DNA from: Centipeda noxia ATCC 43541
GTDB taxonomy: Bacteria; Bacillota; Negativicutes; Selenomonadales; Selenomonadaceae
DNA length: 64,000 nucleotides
Direction of reading: 5' to 3'
Assembly: GCF_000160555.1 (NCBI RefSeq)
Contig: NZ_GG749281.1
Span: 163,955-227,954, forward strand
Every line of letters begins with the position of its first letter. The first letter of the stretch is position 1. The notes under the pieces are model-generated. The model was not told where the DNA came from and did no database searches. It saw only the letters and a list, made by a program, of their open reading frames with translations. Below, piece by piece: positions 1-10,812 of this stretch. Made by a program: the position numbers and the translations under genes.

Positions 1-1689
1 CGCCCCCCCCTCGAGTGCAAGAAACGCTGCGCGCCACTCCTTTGTCAGATTCTCCTTGTACCTCATGCGCTCGATGATGAATGTCTCCGGCATCCAGAGG
101 ATGTCAAAGAAACCTTCGATATCGTGTCCGAATGCCTCCTCGAAGAACGAGCGTCCGCGCCCGATCTTTCCCTTGGTTGCATTAAGAACCGCCTGCACCG
201 CGCGGATAAACTTTCGGTTCCAATGCACGCCGATAAAATCCCGGTTACGGAAATACTTCGGGTCGCGAATCGGGTGATACTTCATCGGGAACGAATAGAT
301 CGCCACGTCCAGTTCGTCGCAGAGGTCTACATTGATGCGCATCCGCAGATACAGCTCCTCGGGCTGATCCTCATAATTGTAAAGCAGATAGTTCGACAGA
401 TGGTCGATGCCCGATGCCGCTGCCATCCGAATCGCACGGACATAGACATCCTTCGCCTCGTAGTGATCAAATGCGATGCGCAGGGGATTGATTGCCGTTT
501 CTGCAAGTCTCGCCATCTTCTCAGACGTTACAAGCCGTGCGTCAAGCCCTTGGTTGAAATCCAGCGCACGCTTTCGCTTCGTCCGCTTGAAATATTTCTC
601 GTAGAGCGGACGCGCCACCACGTCAAAGGCAAGCGCATTCTCCCGCTCTGCCGAGGGGAGATAAAGCAGACCTGCGCGCTCGCGTGCGAGGTAGAACGCC
701 CCCGCCTCCTCATCCTTGAGCTTCCCCGCAATCGCCTCATAGAGTGCGAGCATTTTTTTGAGATAGCCGCGCACATTGTGCCCGCGCCGCAGGTTGGAAA
801 TGGCAACCTCGTACGGGCTGGACGGTGTGTAGTGCGCCCCCTTTTGAAAGCCCTGCGCCTTGATCTCCTCAATGATGTCAAAAAAACGTGCAGAAGCAAA
901 AACGTTGTTATCCATGAGCAGGAGATCCCGCTGCGCACCGAAATGCTCCTCGATATACCCGAGCTGTCCTGCGATGCCGATATACTCCTTATACTTCGGC
1001 TCGAGCGTCTTGACCGCACAAAAGGGACAGTTGCGGATGCAGCCGCGCGTCATATAGCCGAAATAGGCATCGTGCGCGGGATAGGTATAGTCGATTTCCT
1101 CCAAAATGGAGTAGTCAAGCGGAAGCGTGTCGATGACCTCCCCGTCCTCATCAATCATGCCGGGACGGTCGAGCAGACCGACATAGGGATCAACCCCCGT
1201 CTCCTCCTTGATATGCGCGGGCAAAATCGTCGCAGCCACGCCGCCGACGAGCAGACGCCCCTCAGGGTGCACAAACGCCTTGGCATCATTGATGGTGTCA
1301 ATCGTCTTTGCCCAGTAAAACGTAAAGAGCGTCGTCACCGCCACGAGGTCGAACTGCGGATAGTCCCGCCGCTTATAACGCAGGTAGTAGGCGTGTGCCA
1401 GCTCCTGTGCTGCGAGATCCTCCGAGAGCTCGCGCACATCCTCCAAAATGGATGCTGTTCCGCGCCGCACATAGCGCTTCAACGCATCAAAGTAGCGGGC
1501 AAGATCAGGCTTGTCCAGTGCGCAATAGAGTTCCTCGACGAGCAGCTGCGCAGCAAAATCCCGCAGATCCCCCTTGAAAAAACGCACATCGTCGCCGCGT
1601 CTGCGAAAATAGGTCGCGAGCTTCATGAGGGGCATCGGCGGGTATTTGTTCTTGTAGTCAGGCTCGAGTAGGAGTACCTTGCGGCTCAC
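1..1689 (-). CDS. Radical SAM protein, C-terminus beyond window edge
   Basis: An open frame begins at a GTG (1689-1687) whose bases overlap the TGA of the upstream ATPase gene (GTGA), and it runs without a stop to base 1, giving 563 visible codons. Residues 217-224 read CIRNCPFC, the CxxxCxxC motif that binds the 4Fe-4S cluster of radical SAM enzymes. The N-terminus (VLLLEPDYKNKYPPMP) resembles the start of the B12-binding-like domain common in this superfamily, but no clear DxHxxG motif was found. It is the last gene of an apparent operon with NurA, HerA and an Hsp90-like ATPase, so a role in nucleic acid or protein modification within that system is plausible. The substrate is unknown. Confidence 0.85.
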   Translation of the reverse strand, partial: MSRKVLLLEPDYKNKYPPMPLMKLATYFRRRGDDVRFFKGDLRDFAAQLLVEELYCALDKPDLARYFDALKRYVRRGTASILEDVRELSEDLAAQELAHAYYLRYKRRDYPQFDLVAVTTLFTFYWAKTIDTINDAKAFVHPEGRLLVGGVAATILPAHIKEETGVDPYVGLLDRPGMIDEDGEVIDTLPLDYSILEEIDYTYPAHDAYFGYMTRGCIRNCPFCAVKTLEPKYKEYIGIAGQLGYIEEHFGAQRDLLLMDNNVFASARFFDIIEEIKAQGFQKGAHYTPSSPYEVAISNLRRGHNVRGYLKKMLALYEAIAGKLKDEEAGAFYLARERAGLLYLPSAERENALAFDVVARPLYEKYFKRTKRKRALDFNQGLDARLVTSEKMARLAETAINPLRIAFDHYEAKDVYVRAIRMAAASGIDHLSNYLLYNYEDQPEELYLRMRINVDLCDELDVAIYSFPMKYHPIRDPKYFRNRDFIGVHWNRKFIRAVQAVLNATKGKIGRGRSFFEEAFGHDIEGFFDILWMPETFIIERMRYKENLTKEWRAAFLALEGGA

Positions 1690-3287
1690 CGCAGCGCGTC
1701 CTCGATTGCCGCAATCACACGCTCGGCGACGGCTGGGTCATCGGCGAGCGTTTTCTCAACAACACGGTATATTTTATCGACCATCTTCTTTTCCTTTTTA
1801 CTCAGTTCAGACAAATTATCAGTACGCCGCACCTTATCATTTTGTACTTTCTGGGGACGCGGTGCCTTTTCCTTCGACGCAGAGGGCTTCGGCTGCTGTT
1901 TCAGCTCCTCTTTGTGTATGCTTAGCCGTGCGCCTGCAATCCGCGCAAGACCCGCATCCATGTCGGAGACATCTTCCTGCTTCGCCATCTCCGCGATGGA
2001 CTTCAGCTTTTGTTCCGCAACCTTCGCCGCTTTTTCCGAAGTCTTGAGACTGTCCGCCGCCTTTTGACGTGCCACAGCATCCAGGAAACGATTTTCTTCG
2101 GACTTTTTCTCGAACGCCTCTTTTTCTTTTTCATACTTTCGCATGTCATTCAGATAGGTGTTCATATCAGAGCCGGAACGGCAGAGCTTGCCAATCTCCT
2201 TCGCGACCTCGCGAAATGCCTCCTCGAGCGCGATGAGCTGCGGGCTGCTGTTGAAGTAGTCGCGGCGCGCATTGGGGCGCAGTCCCGCCGACGGCAGAAC
2301 ATGAAGCTCTCCCATTACATAGCCGGCAAAACGCGCCTCGGGATAGAAGGGACGCAGGGTATCCTCATCACCAATTTGGATATTCCCGACGCGTACACGG
2401 ATACCGGCGAGTGCGCGGTCTTTTCCCGCGAGAGCAGCATAGAACCCCGTTCTCGCATACCAGAGCCAGGCAAGGACAGTACCGTCTGCATCCCTTAGTT
2501 CCTTGAACGCAAGATCCTGTATAGCGTCATGCTTGCCGTCTTTGTAATGATAGTTCGTCCGATATGCCTTGAAAAGCGGCTCCTGATTCACGATAATGCG
2601 GTACTCGTCGAGCGGAACCCCATACTTTGCGGCATGCTTCGTAACCATGCCTTTCTGATAAAAACTGATCTCATATGCTGCGGGAGCGACAAAGGAGAGA
2701 TAACTCCGAATCCGTTCCTTGTCGAGCAGGGCATCCACCTCGCGCTCCACATCATAGAGTTCCACACGAAAGAAATGCGCAGCATCCTTCTTCTTCGCTT
2801 CCTCCGCAGAGAAGGAAAACGCTGCGTCAAGCACCTCTGCGGCAGTGTGCCCCTTTTCATCCACCATTGCACGGAACTGTACGGCATCACATTCCAGACG
2901 GGAAACAGCCGTCTCCCCCGCCGCCCGTGTCGTAAAGACAAGCCGCTTGCAGTAGGCAAGTCCTGCGAGGCGTCCGATTCCGCGAAAGCCCTTGTCCTTG
3001 CCCGCTTCCTTATCTGAGTTGGCAATATCCCCGACCGTGCTGCGGAACTTCGCCGCAGGGACGCCCGCACCGTTGTCTTCGATGCACACATAGCGCTTGT
3101 CACGGTCAATCAGGAGGTGCACACTCCCCTGTCTCTGCTCTGCGTACAGCCCCTCACGCACCGCCTGATCGATGGCATCGCACGCGTTCTGAATGTACTC
3201 CCGATAGATGATGATGGGATCTTGGTACATCCCCGTCGTCAGCGTCTCGAGCATACTCGCACCAAAGACAGTTTGCTGTTCTGCCAT
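1686..3287 (-). CDS. Hsp90-like (GHKL) ATPase
   Basis: This 533-residue protein has a GHKL ATP-binding domain at its N-terminus. The N box is at E30/N34/D37 (REYIQNACDAID), the Mg/adenine loop is DNGAG at 71-75, and a glycine-rich lid (GFRGIGRLAGL) lies near residue 100. The arrangement is that of Hsp90/MORC-like ATPases rather than histidine kinases, as no H box or receiver partner is present. The C-terminal third is charged and probably coiled coil (KYEKEKEAFEKKSEENR and following). ATG 3287 is preferred because AAGGGGTGAG sits just upstream. The HerA stop lies 5 bases before it and the radical SAM gene overlaps its end. It may be an ATP-driven clamp or sensor in the cassette. Confidence 0.85.
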   Translation of the reverse strand: MAEQQTVFGASMLETLTTGMYQDPIIIYREYIQNACDAIDQAVREGLYAEQRQGSVHLLIDRDKRYVCIEDNGAGVPAAKFRSTVGDIANSDKEAGKDKGFRGIGRLAGLAYCKRLVFTTRAAGETAVSRLECDAVQFRAMVDEKGHTAAEVLDAAFSFSAEEAKKKDAAHFFRVELYDVEREVDALLDKERIRSYLSFVAPAAYEISFYQKGMVTKHAAKYGVPLDEYRIIVNQEPLFKAYRTNYHYKDGKHDAIQDLAFKELRDADGTVLAWLWYARTGFYAALAGKDRALAGIRVRVGNIQIGDEDTLRPFYPEARFAGYVMGELHVLPSAGLRPNARRDYFNSSPQLIALEEAFREVAKEIGKLCRSGSDMNTYLNDMRKYEKEKEAFEKKSEENRFLDAVARQKAADSLKTSEKAAKVAEQKLKSIAEMAKQEDVSDMDAGLARIAGARLSIHKEELKQQPKPSASKEKAPRPQKVQNDKVRRTDNLSELSKKEKKMVDKIYRVVEKTLADDPAVAERVIAAIEDALR

Positions 3288-3292
3288 CGTTC

Positions 3293-4999
3293 TCACCCCT
3301 TAAATTGTTTATAAATCGGTTTTGGAAATTGGATCTTGAGCAGGGAACGGAACATCGGGTTCTGGATGAGGTAGTCGCCCTGTGCGAGGCGTGTGAGCAT
3401 ATTCTTGTAGACAGGTGGCAGACTCTTGTAGTCCTTCGTCTCCGTCTCAATCGTATTCGTCCGCCCATAGGCGTGCGTCGAGCAGTTGCCCGTCACGCGC
3501 GGATGGATATTCGAGCGGAACTGCTCCGCGCCAAAGAGGACAACGCCGAGCGAGCGCCCGCGCTCCGTCACATCGAGGATTTCGCGCAGGATCGCCGAGG
3601 ACTTCGGCGTGTCCTTCGAGGCATATTTGTTCAGCTCGTCGATGAAGACCACGATGCGCGTGGGCGGCTTGTGTTCATCCAGCTCATCATCATACTCGCC
3701 GAGCTTCAGATTGTAGATTGCCCGAATCGCATCGCCGAAGACGAACGCCTGTTTATCCTCCGAGAGCTTTGCAATATCGATGACGTAGACATCGTTTTTC
3801 CGAATACGGCGGATTTCGTCCGTCAGACGGCATTCGCCCTGCGTATCGACCACGCGGCTCGCAAACATATCATCGTTACGGATTGCCTTGTTGATGATTC
3901 TCTTAAATTTTCTCCAGCTAAGAACGGAGATTTCATTGGACTTCTTCTTGTCCTCCTTCGTATTCTTCTGTGACAGATCGTCCACCTTTTCCCGAAAGGC
4001 GTTCCAATTGGACAGACCCGAAAAGTCTGGATCCGTCGCATCAATAATCTTATTGATGATCGCGTCCATCGTCTGCTGCGGATCGTCAATGTCGGAAAAG
4101 AGCATCTCAATGCTCTCCTTATCGTCCTCATAGGTGTATTTGAACTTTTTGAGGATTCCCTCGTGTTCGTATTCTGACTGCTCCACTTTCCCGAGATAGG
4201 TGCTCTGGCGGGGCTTGCCCTGCTGCGTGTAGGGAATGTAATATTTAACCTGCTCAAACGGCTTGCCCGAAAGTCCCATCGCATGATACTCCGTCATCAC
4301 ACGGGTGCGCTCTACGGCAGGGTCATCTGCCTCACTGAAATCATTTTCCTCGTGAATGGCAAGCAGATCCTTCCCCTTCACATTGAAAATGACGTAGGCG
4401 ACCGACTCCTCCTCTTCCTTCATGTACCGCTCCTGCGCGGCTTTCAGGAGGAACATCGCGTAGGAGGTCTTTGCCGCAAGACCGGAGATGCCCGAGATAT
4501 TGAGGTGTGCGCCCTCCGGTCCGAGCAGGAATTTCGCATTCAGCGGGACATTGAGCGAGATTTCCGCTGCTGTGTCCGCGTACATTCGAACCGCGCCGCA
4601 AACGAGCGGATTCTTCACATCATCCAGACCGAGCGCCGTCGTAATCTCGTCTACACTCGCACGACGCACCTTCGCCCCGCTGTGCACGGGCGTATAGATG
4701 CCCTTACTGTTGTATGAAACCGCCGCCTCGACATAGTTCATACCGAGCCGCGCCGTATTGCCCTCCACATCCACATCGCCGAAGTCACTCGAGATAAAGC
4801 TCGTCAGAAAGCTCTGCGCATCCGTGATGTGCGAGATGTTCTGAATGACACCATAGGAAAACGAGCCTTCGATGTGCTCCACCTTCACAATGTCGAACGC
4901 ATGAAGTTTCTCGTTCTCGCTAGTCCAGAAGGTAAATGTGTCCATCGTCGTGGGGCGTTTCTCCGTTGCAATCACGCGCCCGATTAAAGTACCTGCCAT
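3293..4999 (-). CDS. HerA-like ATPase/translocase (DUF87 family)
   Basis: This 568-residue protein fits HerA, a hexameric DNA translocase that works with NurA in DNA end processing and in several defence systems. A short N-terminal beta domain (MAGTLIGRVIATEK) resembles the HAS barrel. The nucleotide loop is near residues 170-179 (GISGLAAKTS), a deviation from GxxxxGK[ST]. Walker B is IVVFIDEL near 449-456, followed by a segment resembling a sensor/arginine-finger region (GRSLGVVLFGAEQFRSN). The lysine-rich middle (340-370) is probably a linker. It starts 9 bases after the NurA stop with a TGAGGTGG ribosome site. The function is inferred from fold and neighbour; the P-loop change makes ATPase activity a point to test. 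Confidence 0.88.
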   Translation of the reverse strand: MAGTLIGRVIATEKRPTTMDTFTFWTSENEKLHAFDIVKVEHIEGSFSYGVIQNISHITDAQSFLTSFISSDFGDVDVEGNTARLGMNYVEAAVSYNSKGIYTPVHSGAKVRRASVDEITTALGLDDVKNPLVCGAVRMYADTAAEISLNVPLNAKFLLGPEGAHLNISGISGLAAKTSYAMFLLKAAQERYMKEEEESVAYVIFNVKGKDLLAIHEENDFSEADDPAVERTRVMTEYHAMGLSGKPFEQVKYYIPYTQQGKPRQSTYLGKVEQSEYEHEGILKKFKYTYEDDKESIEMLFSDIDDPQQTMDAIINKIIDATDPDFSGLSNWNAFREKVDDLSQKNTKEDKKKSNEISVLSWRKFKRIINKAIRNDDMFASRVVDTQGECRLTDEIRRIRKNDVYVIDIAKLSEDKQAFVFGDAIRAIYNLKLGEYDDELDEHKPPTRIVVFIDELNKYASKDTPKSSAILREILDVTERGRSLGVVLFGAEQFRSNIHPRVTGNCSTHAYGRTNTIETETKDYKSLPPVYKNMLTRLAQGDYLIQNPMFRSLLKIQFPKPIYKQFKG

Positions 5000-5008
5000 T
5001 ATGCCACC

Positions 5009-6187
5009 TCAAAACATCTGCAAAAAACTCTCATTTGGAATGTACTGCGCCTTGACGAATTGCTCCGTCAGGTAAATTGGATAGAGATGATTCGCCCAAC
5101 GCAAATCTGACCCGTAGCAGACGGGATTCCGCTCATTCAGAATCCGTGCACTCAGGTCATCGATGCGCTCCGTGTCCATCCCTTTTTCAGCCTCATCCCC
5201 GACCAGTATCTTCTCCACCTTGACAACGCCGTCAAAGATGGAGCGCGTCCGCACCGCCTCGCGCAGACGGAGATACCAGACGGCATAGCGAACTCCGCCC
5301 CACTCGTACATCGCGGCGGGCGTACGGCAGCAAAAGGGAAGCTCCGCGATGAAGCCCGGATTCGGCTTGCCGTCTTGATCCTTGCAGACCTCGGGGTTAA
5401 AGTTCTTCGATACGCCGAGTACCCATTCATACTGCTCCTGGTGCAGCATCTTGTCCTTCTCACTTGCCGCATCCCCACGCTTCAGCCCTCGGTATTCGAG
5501 CGAGCCGTCCTTGATGAGATAGTTCGCCTGATCGAGTGCGTGCTCCTTCACAAGATTCCGCACCATCTCCTGCTCGAGCCAGATCATGCGATCCTGAATC
5601 ATTGCCGTGCCGCGGCTCTCGTAAAAGTTCCGCCCGATCTGCTTCCACTCCTCACTTGGTTTGGAGGTATCATAGAAAAAGATGTGACTGAAATGTACGC
5701 CGCGCCGCCCTGCCATCTCCACCGCATTGAGCTTTTCCACAAGCGCACCCGAAAACCCTGCCCGTCCGTCCGCATTGGCGAGGTCGGGCAGGGCAAGAAC
5801 GCACTCGAAAGAAAATCGGTGCTTCTTCATCACGCGATTGCTGCGCTTACAGCAACCGACCCCGACCTGCCCTGCGAGGACGGGATAGACCGAGATTCGT
5901 TTATTTTTCGAAAAGGCAATATCATCGACCTTGTAGACATGACGCGACCCGTCCAGAAAATAAGCAAGGCTGTCTACCACTTGATACTGTTTGAGCTGAT
6001 CGCATCGTGCTGCAAGGTCACGATAGCCCTTCAGAGTCTCCGTCTCGCCGGACTGTTCCCATGTCGCGCCATCCCGCCCGTAGTCAATCGTCGGGCGCTC
6101 TGTCATATCAAGACTATGCCGCTGTCCCGGGAACATCCGCTTTGCCCCTGTCTCTTTGATGAGAATATCTTTGATCCGCAATGACAC
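5009..6187 (-). CDS. NurA-like nuclease
   Basis: This 392-residue protein is the first gene of the minus-strand cassette. It carries the acidic N-terminal motif expected of NurA nucleases (FLDGSRHVYKVDD, with D79-G80-S81) and a C-terminal LRWANHLYPIYLTEQ segment typical of the family's second half. NurA is a toroidal nuclease driven by HerA. The start is GTG at 6187, chosen because GAGGTG lies 5 bases upstream and the motif spacing fits. A near-consensus promoter (6287-6315) precedes it. The gene is immediately followed by herA-like DNA, the standard pairing. Assignment to the NurA family is good; the exact substrate is unknown. Confidence 0.85.
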   Translation of the reverse strand: MSLRIKDILIKETGAKRMFPGQRHSLDMTERPTIDYGRDGATWEQSGETETLKGYRDLAARCDQLKQYQVVDSLAYFLDGSRHVYKVDDIAFSKNKRISVYPVLAGQVGVGCCKRSNRVMKKHRFSFECVLALPDLANADGRAGFSGALVEKLNAVEMAGRRGVHFSHIFFYDTSKPSEEWKQIGRNFYESRGTAMIQDRMIWLEQEMVRNLVKEHALDQANYLIKDGSLEYRGLKRGDAASEKDKMLHQEQYEWVLGVSKNFNPEVCKDQDGKPNPGFIAELPFCCRTPAAMYEWGGVRYAVWYLRLREAVRTRSIFDGVVKVEKILVGDEAEKGMDTERIDDLSARILNERNPVCYGSDLRWANHLYPIYLTEQFVKAQYIPNESFLQMF

Positions 6188-6286
6188 AAACTCACCTCGC
6201 TCTTTCGATTCTCAGTCTTAATATTCTATTCACTTTATCTTTTTCCTTCTTTAATCTTGCTCCTATAAACGGAAATTTCACTCTTT

Positions 6287-6315
6287 ATTATATCTCTTGC
6301 ATTTTCGTTGTTCAA
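6287..6315 (-). promoter_or_regulatory. Sigma-70-type promoter of the nurA-herA cassette
   Basis: On the minus strand TTGAAC (6315-6310) and TATAAT (6292-6287) are separated by exactly 17 bases in an AT-rich intergenic region. It is positioned to transcribe nurA, herA, the Hsp90-like ATPase and the radical SAM gene. The leader to the GTG start is about 95 bases. Confidence 0.7.
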
Positions 6316-6379
6316 CAGAAATGGAAATACTACTTTAACAACTTACTCCTCTATACCTATGGAACCCGAGCTCCAAATA

Positions 6380-6388
6380 TGCTATCAT
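6380..6388 (+). promoter_or_regulatory. Possible extended -10 promoter of the ImmA/IrrE-PIN pair
   Basis: TGC followed by TATCAT lies 31 bases before the ATG at 6420. There is no good -35 element, so this is a weak call resting on the extended -10 pattern and position. Confidence 0.35.
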
Positions 6389-6419
6389 GAAGAAAATCTC
6401 TTGAAAGGAGGTGTCTCTC

Positions 6420-7577
6420 ATGGCAGGGATCACATTACCAATTCACTCGAATATTATTGACTGGGTGCTGCAAAACATCCAAGAGGAGCATCTCGACCCC
6501 GCTGACCTCCACCAATTGGACGCATGGAAGACCGGTGAAAAGCAGCCAACGCTGAGGCAACTGGAAGACATAAGCAAAAAGACTCATATTCCATTTGGTT
6601 ATTTCCTCCTGCAAACCCCTCCGAAAGAAGTCTTTCCACTTATCGAATATCGGACAGTGGGCAGTACAAAGAAAAAGCGCCCCAGCCGTGAGCTCATTGA
6701 TGTCCTCGATCAGATGGCGGCGATCCAGGATTGGATGCGAGACGAGCTGCAAGCAGATGGCATGGATAAATTATCCTTTGTTGGAAGTTACGGGCTCCAT
6801 ATGCCTGCCATACAAATTGCACAGAGCATTCGCCATATACTTGAACTAAAAACCATCTGGTATAGTACGGGAAAAACAGCAGGAGATAATTTTAACTTGT
6901 TTAGAGAGCGCCTAACAAACTGCGGTGTCCTTGTTTTTACTGGAGGTAAGGTTGGCTCTAATACACACAGGCCCCTAAACATAAACGAATTTCGGGCATT
7001 TACACAGGTCGATCCCTATGCACCTCTGATTTTTATCAATACAACAGACGCTCCAAATGGAAGACTCTTCTCCCTCTTGCACGAAACGGCTCATCTTTGG
7101 CTCGGGGAAAACAGTTTGTTCAACCATCCCGATTGGTCGAGAGAAAATGTAAACCTGCTCGAGCAGAAATGTAATGCCGTTGCAGCAGAACTTCTTGTTC
7201 CTATTGATGATTTTCGATCTACATGGGATTCGTCTGTACCTGTGGAAGAAATGGTCGAAAGGGCTTCGCATTATTTCCGATGCAGTGAGGCTGTCATCCT
7301 GCGGCGTGCATATGACAATGGAAAAATCCAGCGAGATTTATATATGAAACTAATGGCAGTCCAAAAACAGCACTGGAAAAATGCAAGGGCCAACAAAGAA
7401 AAAAGTTCTGGAGGCGATTTTTACAACACATTATTGTCGAATCTGGATCGTCGCTTTCTATCTGCCCTTGAAAGGAGCGTCCTTCAGGGAACTACACAGG
7501 ATACGGACGCCTATCGGTTGACAGGTACAAATCGAAAGACATACAGAGCCGCACTAGCAAGGATGGGGGGCATATAA
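6420..7577 (+). CDS. XRE-family regulator with ImmA/IrrE metallopeptidase domain
   Basis: This 385-residue protein is likely an antitoxin-like regulator/protease. The first 70 residues form a degenerate helix-turn-helix region (WKTGEKQPTLRQLEDISKKTHIPFGYFLL), and the middle holds the ImmA/IrrE zinc protease signature HETAH at 221-225. ATG 6420 is chosen over a GTG at 6411 because AAAGGAGGT ends right at that GTG and is correctly spaced from the ATG. The next gene starts one base after its stop, so the two are translationally linked. Pairing with a PIN-domain DUF4411 protein matches a known type II toxin-antitoxin arrangement. Base composition is more AT-rich than most of the window, suggesting horizontal acquisition. 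Confidence 0.85.
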   Translation: MAGITLPIHSNIIDWVLQNIQEEHLDPADLHQLDAWKTGEKQPTLRQLEDISKKTHIPFGYFLLQTPPKEVFPLIEYRTVGSTKKKRPSRELIDVLDQMAAIQDWMRDELQADGMDKLSFVGSYGLHMPAIQIAQSIRHILELKTIWYSTGKTAGDNFNLFRERLTNCGVLVFTGGKVGSNTHRPLNINEFRAFTQVDPYAPLIFINTTDAPNGRLFSLLHETAHLWLGENSLFNHPDWSRENVNLLEQKCNAVAAELLVPIDDFRSTWDSSVPVEEMVERASHYFRCSEAVILRRAYDNGKIQRDLYMKLMAVQKQHWKNARANKEKSSGGDFYNTLLSNLDRRFLSALERSVLQGTTQDTDAYRLTGTNRKTYRAALARMGGI

Positions 7578-8136: not shown

Positions 8137-8873
8137 CTATTTTCCAGCGAGCATCACCTTGTACCGCAGCCATAGGCAGCCGCCCTGCTTTTCCTCAATG
8201 CCAAGCAGTCGGAGTGAAAGCGCTTTGTTTTCCGCGAATCCTCCCGCATCCGAAAAGAGGGCGGGCATCTTCGCCGTGCCGTCGGCTGCAGCGGCGATGA
8301 CAAGGCTGATCTCGTCGCACAGCCCCTCCTGTAGGAAAGACCAGTTAAGTATCCCACCGCCGCCAAGCATAAGCGTGCGAACGTGAAAGAGGTGGAAAAG
8401 CTTATCCATCGCAAGAGCACAGTCGAGAGCATCCTCTCCTGCGATGATGTACGAGATGTTCATCCTTCGCAGGAACGCCTTATAGGCGTTCGATGCACGC
8501 CCCGTCACACCTCAATGATATGCGCCTCGGTATCGCCGTAGCGCAGGATATTGCTCTTCTACCCGAGCCGCCCGCTGCGATCGAGCGAGATATAATACAA
8601 TACATAGGGCGCTCCGCCGTGATAACAAAATCCCCCGCCGAGACTTGCAACGCATTTTCATCGAGATCGAGCTATTCGTAGAATGTGAAGTTATCATCCG
8701 TCGTGACCCGCCCCGAGATCCATCCCTCGTGCTGATAAAACGCGTCCTTGCCGAACGCGATGTCATATAACACCTCGCCTGCCGCCGCGCCCTCGGGTGT
8801 ACCCATAGTAGGAGCCCATGATTTTACCGTCGAGCGAGGTCATCATATGGCAGAAAATATATGGTCGCTTCAT
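8137..8873 (-). pseudogene. Decayed RibD C-terminal/dihydrofolate-reductase-fold protein
   Basis: The 3' half is an intact frame (8137-8508) with the family's glycine-rich nucleotide site (LMLGGGGILNWSFL) and C-terminal strand. Upstream, recognisable N-terminal sequence is spread over more than one frame. ATG 8873, with a GGAAAGGA ribosome site, opens RPYIFCHMMTSLDGKIMGS. A frameshift near 8806 leads to TPEGAAAGEV, an in-frame TAG follows after DDNFTFYE, and a second frameshift precedes the intact part. The ancestral protein would have been an NADPH-dependent reductase of the RibD_C family. Several independent lesions argue for real decay rather than one sequencing error. Confidence 0.75.
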
Positions 8874-9612: not shown

Positions 9613-10812
9613 TCAAAAACTCGGATACAGGCCGTCCCATACAACGCGGCGGTAGTTCGCGCGGTCCGTGTCGCCCTCGGTGGAGATGCAGAGGATGCGC
9701 GCGTCCTTGTTCAGGCCGATGCGGTCACGCAGGTAGTCGAGGCTGCGGTTCTGCATGAGCTCGGCAACGAGCCCCGTGGTGACGGCACCGCTCTCGCCCG
9801 AGACAACGCGCGGATCATCGCCCGTCGGGCTGCCGAGGATGCGCATGCCCTTCGCCGCGACCCACTCGGGCACGGAGACAAAGTGATCGGCATAGTCCTT
9901 CAAAATATCCCATGCAAGCGGATTCGGCTCGCCGCAGGAGAGCCCCGCCATGATCGAGTTGATCTCGCCCGTCACGATGTGCGGCGCGCCGTCGTTCGCA
10001 GCGGCGGTGCGGTAGAGGCAGTCCGCGCGGTTCGGCTCGACGATCGTGATGACAGGACGCTGCGCTCCATAATGCGCCGCAAAATATCCCGTGATCGCGC
10101 CCGGCAGAGAGCCGACGCCCGCCTGCAGGAAGATGTGCGTCGGCAGCTCTCCGTATTCCTCCGTCGCTTCCGCGGCGAGCGTCGTATATCCCTGCATGAT
10201 CCAGAGCGGGATCTCCGTGTAGCCGTCGAACGCCGTGTCCTGCATCAGCACCCAGCCCTGCTCCTTTGCCATCGTCGCCGCATGGCGCACCGTATCATCG
10301 TAGTTGTATGTCGTGAACGCGGCCTCTGCGCCGAGGCCGCGAATGTTCGCGAGGCGCTCGGGCGAGCCGCCCTTGGGCATAAAGACGTGTGCAAAGAGGC
10401 CGAACAGCTTCGCCGCCCATGCAACGCCGCGCCCGTGATTGCCGTCCGTCGCCGTGACGAGGATGACATTGCGGAGACGCTCGCGGTACGCCGGCTTCTG
10501 CAGGTTCTCATAGGTCATCTCACTCTCGGGCAGACCCAGATACTGCGCGAGATAACGCGCCACGGCATAGCTCGCCCCGAGGGCCTTGAACGCATTGAGG
10601 CCAAAGCGCTTGCTCTCATCCTTTACCGCAAGCCGCCCGATGCCAAGCGCTGCCGAAAGCCGCACGAGATCTGCGAGCGGGGTCGGCTCATACCCCGGAA
10701 TTCCCCGATGGAACTCTGCCGCACGCGCGGCGGTCTCCTTGCCGAATGCAGAGACATCGGATAACGCGGTCTCGGGATGCAGCTTCTCTACTGCTTTGAT
10801 CGATTCATTCAT
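9613..10812 (-). CDS. dpaL: Diaminopropionate ammonia-lyase
   Basis: This 399-residue fold-type II PLP enzyme converts 2,3-diaminopropionate to pyruvate and ammonia (EC 4.3.1.15). The PLP lysine lies in the family motif SKRFGLNAFKALGASYA near residues 67-83. DGNHGRGVAWAAKLFG is the phosphate-side loop typical of this family and distinguishes it from threonine dehydratase. The length agrees with E. coli YgeX (about 398). It is transcribed away from the SLH porin. Amino acid catabolism is the likely role; no neighbouring gene ties it to a particular pathway. Confidence 0.9.
   Translation of the reverse strand: MNESIKAVEKLHPETALSDVSAFGKETAARAAEFHRGIPGYEPTPLADLVRLSAALGIGRLAVKDESKRFGLNAFKALGASYAVARYLAQYLGLPESEMTYENLQKPAYRERLRNVILVTATDGNHGRGVAWAAKLFGLFAHVFMPKGGSPERLANIRGLGAEAAFTTYNYDDTVRHAATMAKEQGWVLMQDTAFDGYTEIPLWIMQGYTTLAAEATEEYGELPTHIFLQAGVGSLPGAITGYFAAHYGAQRPVITIVEPNRADCLYRTAAANDGAPHIVTGEINSIMAGLSCGEPNPLAWDILKDYADHFVSVPEWVAAKGMRILGSPTGDDPRVVSGESGAVTTGLVAELMQNRSLDYLRDRIGLNKDARILCISTEGDTDRANYRRVVWDGLYPSF

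Follow-up and report, generated by a model that had tools for sequence, protein, structure and literature searches.

A NurA-HerA, GHKL ATPase and radical SAM operon of Centipeda noxia as a candidate restriction-like system of two exchangeable modules

What does a bacterium do with an operon in which a DNA translocase and a nuclease are joined to an Hsp90-like ATPase and a radical SAM enzyme? The question is raised by the first 6,187 bp of a 64,000 bp stretch of the genome of Centipeda noxia ATCC 43541 (contig NZ_GG749281.1, positions 163,955 to 227,954), of which the full length is called the window below. An earlier interpretation made from the letters of this DNA (the sequence-only reading) had recognised four gene families and proposed a DNA processing or defence cassette. 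The four genes are designated N, H, G and R:

5009-6187, minus strand: N, NurA-family nuclease of 392 amino acids (aa), first gene of the operon, assigned by AlphaFold2 (AF2) model and structure comparison
3293-4999, minus strand: H, HerA-family DNA translocase ATPase of 568 aa, assigned by profile match to 7f6d_B
1686-3296, minus strand: G, Hsp90/HtpG-like GHKL ATPase of 536 aa, assigned by Pfam HATPase_c_3 and the HtpG profile
1-1689, minus strand: R, radical SAM enzyme with an N-terminal cobalamin-binding-type Rossmann domain, assigned by motif and AF2 model

The best reading of the comparisons described here is that G-R takes a position like that of a modification module and N-H one like that of a restriction module, the two being exchangeable. 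The proposal of 'DNA processing or defence' is supported, and can in this way be narrowed. With a probability of roughly 0.55, the cassette is a restriction-like system against invading DNA, in which G-R marks self and N-H degrades DNA. We rate it as a new variant of modification-linked restriction; the set N-H-G-R was not found described in the literature that was searched, which omits most subscription papers.

The exchange of modules was seen in a phylum sample of 398 genomes, in which R was counted above 200 bits. H was present in 12 of these genomes. It adjoined G-R in four, and in the other eight (loci L114-L121) a protein of approximately 1,090 aa, which was 43-76% identical to the copy of L115 and was present as two pieces in L121. 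Two copies of this protein were scanned, and gave 1269 and 1322 bits to the PADLOC type IIG restriction-methyltransferase model. A second methyltransferase-family gene was present in six of the eight loci, and the one scanned matched N6_N4_Mtase. Because each of the 12 N-H loci adjoins either a methyltransferase or G-R, all have a candidate modification partner. Radical SAM genes located a few kb from N-H in L114 and L115 were rejected as members of the R family (17 and 22 bits, 21-22% identity).

R was found in seven genomes of the sample, four times beside N-H and three times (L122, L123 and L124) in clusters of the Pbe/CxC type, with the order BigB-PbeA-PbeC-small protein-R(-G). In L124, PbeA and PbeC gave 724 and 626 bits, respectively, and homologues of both were present in L122 and L123. 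One genome (G359) holds both arrangements on separate contigs, N-H in L120 and R in L122. The genome of L124 (97% complete) gave no match to the PAPS-reductase family, which we take to be the family of DndC, and only a 34-position fragment matched the C5-methylase family, so that no obvious DndC or cytosine methylase is available to its Pbe cluster. No C5-methylase match was obtained in the genome of L123 (G501). According to PMC10853773 (in the passages on these systems), cytosine methylases are found in some CxC/Pbe systems, and phosphorothioation is not the only modification that the DndDE core recruits. R-G stands in a position of this kind. In the main text of that paper, as far as covered, radical SAM occurs twice, both times in connection with DndC, and NurA and GHKL are absent. 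A Pbe-cluster gene of ~150 aa was considered as DndE and dropped, since the one family that it matched was 'DNA phosphorothioation-associated protein 4', with a sub-cut-off score of 22 bits. In L123, the Pbe-R-G cluster begins with a large gene (L123:1032-4502) that contains a segment resembling sigma-70 region 4 and has a weak match to MzaA of the MZA system.

A conventional modification gene was looked for in and around the cassette itself. None of the four window genes matched a methyltransferase family in PADLOC, Pfam or NCBIfam, and the [DNS]PP[YFW] motif was not present in genes of at least 150 aa in loci L033 and L034. In a search for PAPS-reductases (PF01507) in which 14 of 14 controls were positive, matches were obtained in G501, G359 and G189; neither the window genome (G000) nor G206, G437 and G583 had any, though a divergent enzyme may be present.

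The association of R with modification-type genes extends to plasmids. By tblastn, R was found on 12 alphaproteobacterial plasmid records, and all nine loci examined (one of them without annotation) had the order DGQHR protein - R - G. This first protein is DndB/DpdB-like, with 142 bits to TIGR03187 in L212 (cut-off 58.85) and 31.5 bits to PF14072 in L211 (cut-off 29.1). A SNF2 helicase (homologous to that of L212, and related to DpdE/ZorD) and ParB-like genes were located near R-G in six of the nine, and a long DGQHR protein in three. Since L215 and L219 are near-identical, these loci do not represent nine independent events. A gene for a PIN-type nuclease is paired with a second GHKL homologue on seven of them (L211-L215, L218, L219); in L211 it was identified as PIN_8 by profile.

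On viral contigs the best 80 of 427 relatives were kept, which is no census, and modules were counted in the 19 best loci (L131-L149, R at 382 bits or more), leaving out the other 61; the contigs of L131 and L132 are identical to those of L106 and L107. R was accompanied by N-H in two of the 19, by the SNF2/ParB set in eight, by a long DGQHR gene in one and by DrmA-DrmB in one (L134). DISARM normally carries a methyltransferase. In L134, DrmA (E 4.9e-51), DrmB (E 9e-8) and one more gene are followed by R-G; its 38-kb record gave no C5-methylase and no PAPS-reductase match, and the [DNS]PP[YFW] motif, by which alone the N6 family was checked, was absent from the eight genes of the stretch.

Phages contributed several observations of a different kind. 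Short homologues of R (~360-440 aa, 180-240 bits) are present on 12 phage-like contigs among the best 80 of 427 (L151-L159 and L163-L165). In nine of these the R homologue is preceded by a gene of ~200 aa, which is ParB-like in L158 (L158:9264-10996 for the set), and in L157 and L158 a terminase gene is close by. The ParB-like neighbour in L158 has a further match, to the N-terminal portion of a PHROG named DNA methyltransferase, and has the terminase downstream. Marinitoga camini virus 1 carries a NurA-HerA pair beside a divergent R (166 bits) on the opposite strand.

The simplest reading of these exchanges is that G-R is a self-identity module and N-H a degrading module. A bolder proposal is made tentatively, at slightly below even odds: R-G may be a mobile DNA-modification module with a previously unseen mark, interchangeable among NurA-HerA, Pbe/CxC, DndB-SNF2-PIN and DISARM chassis, where it would replace methylation, phosphorothioation or 7-deazaguanine, and phages with stand-alone R homologues would wear the same mark.

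The four genes recur together. Counting the window genome, N was present in 32 of 189 genomes of the family and in two of the 14 that represent the genus, and 25 of the 32 family loci, again with the window, have all four genes in the order N-H-G-R. Of the other seven, L008, L036, L044 and L063 are cut by contig ends, L061 and L062 are decayed, and L042 has N-H only. The latter was first a candidate for N-H without G-R and was rejected as such: a full-length, adjacent G-R pair lies on another contig of the same genome bin, and L042 is for this reason not counted against the model. At least eight of the 25 quartets (L043, L047, L048, L050, L052, L058, L059 and L060) have a broken, truncated or contig-cut gene. 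These counts do not depend on the greedy gene caller, which drops some overlapping genes (e.g. in L040, L053 and L054). Seven further quartets were found, in genomes of other families (L111-L113), on viral contigs (L106-L108) and on a phage-labelled scaffold from human faeces (L109). A single-sequence scan of genome contigs yielded one locus, in Selenomonas flueggei (ATCC 43531), where H is 94% identical, and searches around G206 (within its class) and G501 (within its order) retrieved nothing beyond these two genomes (1 of 15 and 1 of 13, respectively). All four genes are under purifying selection, with ratios of nonsynonymous to synonymous substitution rates (dN/dS) of 0.04-0.15 against the nearest relative. 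The spacing in order of transcription is +9, -4 and -4 bases, in line with the tight coupling claimed earlier; R is truncated by the window edge, with 563 aa inside the window and 601 aa in the R of the closest relative.

An HNH endonuclease gene was observed in nine of the 32 family loci (L008 was left out of this search), at varying positions, either upstream of N or interrupting G and the start of R:

L042:10647-11444: HNH gene
L047:2251-3048: HNH gene
L048:4166-4963: HNH gene
L052:12693-13649: HNH gene
five further loci: HNH gene

It could be either a movable nuclease or an extra effector.

The functions assigned to the modules depend on the identity of the four proteins. For N, neither Pfam, NCBIfam nor PADLOC gave a match with the window protein, and sequence profiles were weak (E 0.38 against the PDB; Pfam E 0.1 in one of 23 members). 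As such profiles are insufficient to call NurA, the identity of N was taken from its predicted structure. The AF2 model (predicted local distance difference test score, pLDDT, 84.3) has a VIA Z score of 20.0 to Deinococcus radiodurans NurA (7f6d_G) over 293 residues, with a Foldseek E value of 1.7e-11 to the same chain; further VIA matches are Thermotoga maritima TM1739 (Z 18.2), Sulfolobus NurA (2ygk_A, 15.6) and chain G of the TdpAB complex (8wfd, 14.3). Residues D79 (in FLDGSR) and D227 (in KDG) are invariant in 23 of 23 sequences and are probably catalytic, by comparison with the DGS motif of NurA. H was identified by a profile of 22 sequences, which matched D. radiodurans HerA (7f6d_B) with an E value of 2.1e-51; both proteins have the same unusual P-loop region, NISGISGxAxKTSY. 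A NurA fold with conserved acidic residues is thus encoded 9 bases from a HerA gene, as befits a HerA-NurA pair.

In R, the cysteines of the CxxxCxxC motif (C217, C221 and C224) are invariant in 19 of 19 aligned sequences, and they are the sole invariant cysteines among 12 diverse R proteins, so that the second iron-sulfur cluster of MiaB/RimO methylthiotransferases, which have extra conserved cysteines for it, is not indicated. Pfam Radical_SAM matched all 19 members at E <=0.1 (19.2 bits for the window protein, where the curated cut-off is 29.5), and Pfam B12-binding eight of the 19 at E <=0.1 (best E 0.0022; window protein 18.2 bits, below the cut-off). The AF2 model of R (pLDDT 87.1) gave VIA Z scores of 15.4 with AprD4, 15.1 with MgmA, 13.8 with TsrM, 13.1 with MiaB and 12.7 with both OxsB and CysS. 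AprD4, the top match, is not known to need cobalamin. The two-domain fold of AprD4, MgmA, TsrM, OxsB, CysS and TokK is that of R overall (Z 12.6-15.4); however, they are only 9-16% identical to R, which stands in an operon context with DNA-restriction genes. R combines CxxxCxxC with a predicted N-terminal B12-type Rossmann fold, the features of class B radical SAM enzymes.

G was matched by Pfam HATPase_c_3 (47.1 bits, cut-off 25) and by the N-domain of HtpG (E 2.7e-11), and its N-box, DNxxG and GFRGIGRL motifs are invariant across modules in 11 diverse members. It does not have the architecture of full-length HtpG (36.8 bits, where the curated cut-off is 371). The profile and structure searches therefore bear out all four family calls of the sequence-only reading, which had been made from motifs, and its suggestion that the recurrence of the four families be examined is answered by the loci described above.

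Put together, the components suggest the following mechanism. R would install a chemical mark on the DNA of the host, and G, as an ATP-driven clamp like Hsp90 or MORC proteins, would load or license R on DNA. H would pump double-stranded DNA and N would degrade it, activities known from other HerA-NurA complexes. The mark would block N-H; unmarked incoming DNA, presumably of phages or plasmids, would be captured and degraded. The HerA-NurA of Thermococcus kodakarensis is active on double-stranded DNA, in which it cleaves both strands, and a defence (antiviral) role is considered possible by the authors (PMC12977600, in the passages on this activity). For GHKL proteins of the MORC/paraMORC type, which act mainly in restriction-modification (R-M) neighbourhoods, DNA looping has been proposed (Iyer et al. 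2008, PMC2292703, in the parts on these families). The chemistry of R is a step beyond its position, as R could mark DNA or could make or remove the trigger of an effector. If it marks DNA, methylation is our guess at the likeliest chemistry, because of the nearest structural relatives of R.

Several observations weigh against a self-marking G-R module. The substrates of the solved structural neighbours of R are small molecules, peptides, proteins or tRNA rather than DNA. L122 has R without G, and its genome carries both C5-methylase and PAPS-reductase families on other contigs; the genome of L123 has PAPS-reductases, at more than 500 kb from R. A C5-methylase match was present elsewhere in four of six records tested, including the quartet genomes of L112 and L113 (on other contigs), and the [DNS]PP[YFW] motif was present in some gene of three of 32 loci tested (L107, L143 and L145). 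No recognised module was found beside R(-G) in seven of the 19 best viral-contig loci, and L158 is the only locus in which a profile identified the pairing of R with a ParB-like gene in phages. Over 14 loci, the distance matrices of the four proteins gave pairwise correlations of 0.85-0.97, a range obtained without a housekeeping control. Finally, L047, L048 and L052 retain full-length N and H while the HNH gene replaces part of G and the first ~45-50 residues of R. This R is the only copy found in the draft bins concerned (60-80% complete), of which only that of G058 is without a reported stop. A strict toxic-restriction model does not predict such loci; it would agree with them only if the mark could be dispensed with or the truncated R were active.

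The intact N-H in loci that have lost part of G-R is in keeping with the strongest alternative, in which R-G is a sensor or signalling module. R would make or modify a small molecule or partner protein during infection (cf. the modified nucleotides of viperin-type enzymes), or strip modifications from the invader, and G would relay this, switching on HerA-NurA or another effector. A shared trigger could accompany effectors as different as NurA-HerA, HKD-helicase, PIN nuclease and DISARM, and the second GHKL homologue next to a PIN-type nuclease gene on seven of nine plasmid loci also fits. Furthermore, DUF4297-HerA is a two-component system without modification gene that acts by abortive infection (PMC11291478, in the passages on its composition and action). 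Against this, N-H is paired with a methyltransferase-family gene in all eight sampled loci that do not have G-R, and R occurs among DndB/DpdB-like and Dnd-related genes, a setting of the modification type. We consider this alternative unlikely, though to be taken seriously.

Housekeeping or stress-related DNA repair is improbable. HerA-NurA would resect breaks, R would repair a damaged base or nucleotide and G would act as chaperone. HerA-NurA of D. radiodurans and of archaea are usually described as repair enzymes, and the closest solved relatives of H and N are the D. radiodurans pair. However, N is patchily distributed (in the 2 of 14 genus and 32 of 189 family genomes given above) and broken copies occur; the quartet is present on three viral contigs and G-R on plasmids, and relatives have R-M genes at the chromosomal site. 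For the T. kodakarensis pair, direct end resection was judged unlikely (PMC12977600, in the passages on its role). An export or trimming of DNA by HerA and NurA during cell-to-cell transfer, as by TdtA and its NurA-like partner on Thermus ICEth1, where efficient transjugation depends on a type II restriction enzyme as well as on TdtA and the NurA-like protein (PMC5365140, in the passages on these genes), is very improbable in spite of the NurA-HerA pair on Marinitoga camini virus 1, as it leaves G-R with Pbe, SNF2/PIN or DISARM genes unexplained and no integrase or transfer genes were recognised beside the quartet by eye in lists of open reading frames (ORFs), no profile search for them having been made.

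How far, then, does the cassette agree with systems already named? The D. radiodurans HerA-NurA (7f6d) is closest, by the scores and the P-loop region given above; the window pair shares its conserved operon with genes for a GHKL ATPase and a radical SAM enzyme. TdpAB is tied to the phosphorothioate mark of DNA. Its complex (8wfd) is ATP-dependent and contains the NurA-fold chain that matches N at Z 14.3, but the window genome has no PAPS-reductase match and the partners here are radical SAM and GHKL proteins; a sulfur-transfer enzyme of the PAPS-reductase type (DndC class), as in Dnd, Ssp and Tdp systems, was accordingly not found in this genome (PF01507, 0 matches). Pbe/CxC systems (PbeABCD) have R(-G) homologues in three clusters, and some others carry cytosine methylases or phosphorothioation genes (PMC10853773, in the passages concerned); the window cassette carries HerA-NurA where these systems have the HKD-helicase and the ABC ATPase of the CxC type. 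R-M systems with MORC/paraMORC ATPases likewise have a GHKL protein in the operon, for which DNA looping was proposed, but differ by DNA methylases and SF2 helicases, and 'radical SAM' and 'HerA' are absent from the main text of PMC2292703, as far as covered. A cognate DNA methyltransferase of the kind that defines R-M systems was not recognised in the four window genes with PADLOC, Pfam or NCBIfam. DUF4297-HerA (PMC11291478, in the parts on its make-up) and Sir2-HerA (as cited in part of PMC12977600) also couple a HerA motor to a dedicated effector; the effector is of another family, G and R are lacking, and none of six window proteins scanned with PADLOC and Pfam matched it. DrmA, DrmB and DrmM of DISARM had no matches in the cassette, unlike L134 with its DrmA and DrmB. 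Of the mad1-mad8 set of MADS, only mad8 was matched, by H (35.3 bits, the only PADLOC match of this protein), and the other three proteins matched none. PADLOC, Pfam, NCBIfam and PHROGs gave family-level or sub-cut-off matches only for the window genes and aligned relatives, and no name for the quartet, in agreement with the earlier statement that the set is not assignable to a named system. HerA-like genes were also seen in L125 and L126 (Chlorohelix and Streptomyces plasmids), with a gene for an ImmA/IrrE peptidase, SbcD and an SMC-family ATPase; this is another combination of HerA with an M78-type peptidase.

A gene of this type is also a neighbour of the cassette in the window, where the following features were located upstream of N:

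6315-6287, minus strand: promoter-like site upstream of N, TTGAAC-17-TATAAT, 10 of 12 consensus matches by consensus scan
6411-7577, plus strand: ImmA/IrrE-type (M78) peptidase, an antitoxin- or regulator-like neighbour, Pfam Peptidase_M78 48.9 bits
7579-8085, plus strand: DUF4411 protein, putative toxin-like partner of the M78 gene, Pfam DUF4411 144 bits

The single near-consensus promoter of the sequence-only reading was recovered as the 10/12 site, which is suggestive only, as the scan of 6000-6600 gave three sites where 0.8 were expected; two are overlapping readings of TTGAAC-17-TATAAT and the third is on the plus strand. The AT-rich segment that had been noted is indeed present, with a GC content of 0.32 at 6200-6399, in the spacer between N and the divergent M78-DUF4411 pair. 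This pair agrees by Pfam with the toxin-antitoxin-like pair described earlier, but its role as regulator and toxin of the cassette was dropped: because the relative G030 has the pair without the quartet at the same site, it lies outside the cassette. Beyond the pair, two adjoining short ORFs on the minus strand (8137-8766) resemble a single reductase-type gene (RibD/DHFR-like by eye) with a frame break.

The chromosomal site was defined by a flanking gene (9613-10812 in the window) that is more than 80% identical in 11 relatives of the genus, and it was compared in eight of these. At this site, G027 carries the quartet together with the M78-DUF4411 pair, G030 only the pair, G029 HsdR- and HsdM-like genes and G035 a gene for a BsaXI-like methyltransferase; inspection of the ORF lists, without profile search, revealed no comparable operon in the remaining four. 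As two of the eight relatives carry R-M genes there, the site is a variable slot that is also used by such genes, which supports the defence-island setting proposed before.

If R-G marks DNA, self-recognition in these bacteria would be achieved by radical SAM chemistry, which methylation-oriented analysis of sequencing data may misread, and a single module would account for a family of loci that otherwise have no assignment, be they on chromosomes, on alphaproteobacterial plasmids or on phage-like contigs. HerA-NurA, of which the role is debated (PMC12977600, in the passages concerned), would have an evident function in restriction, and DGQHR-R-G, N-H-G-R and DrmAB-R-G would serve as search handles for new DNA modifications. 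If R-G is a trigger instead, it would be an activation module shared by four unlike effector sets, which was likewise not found described.

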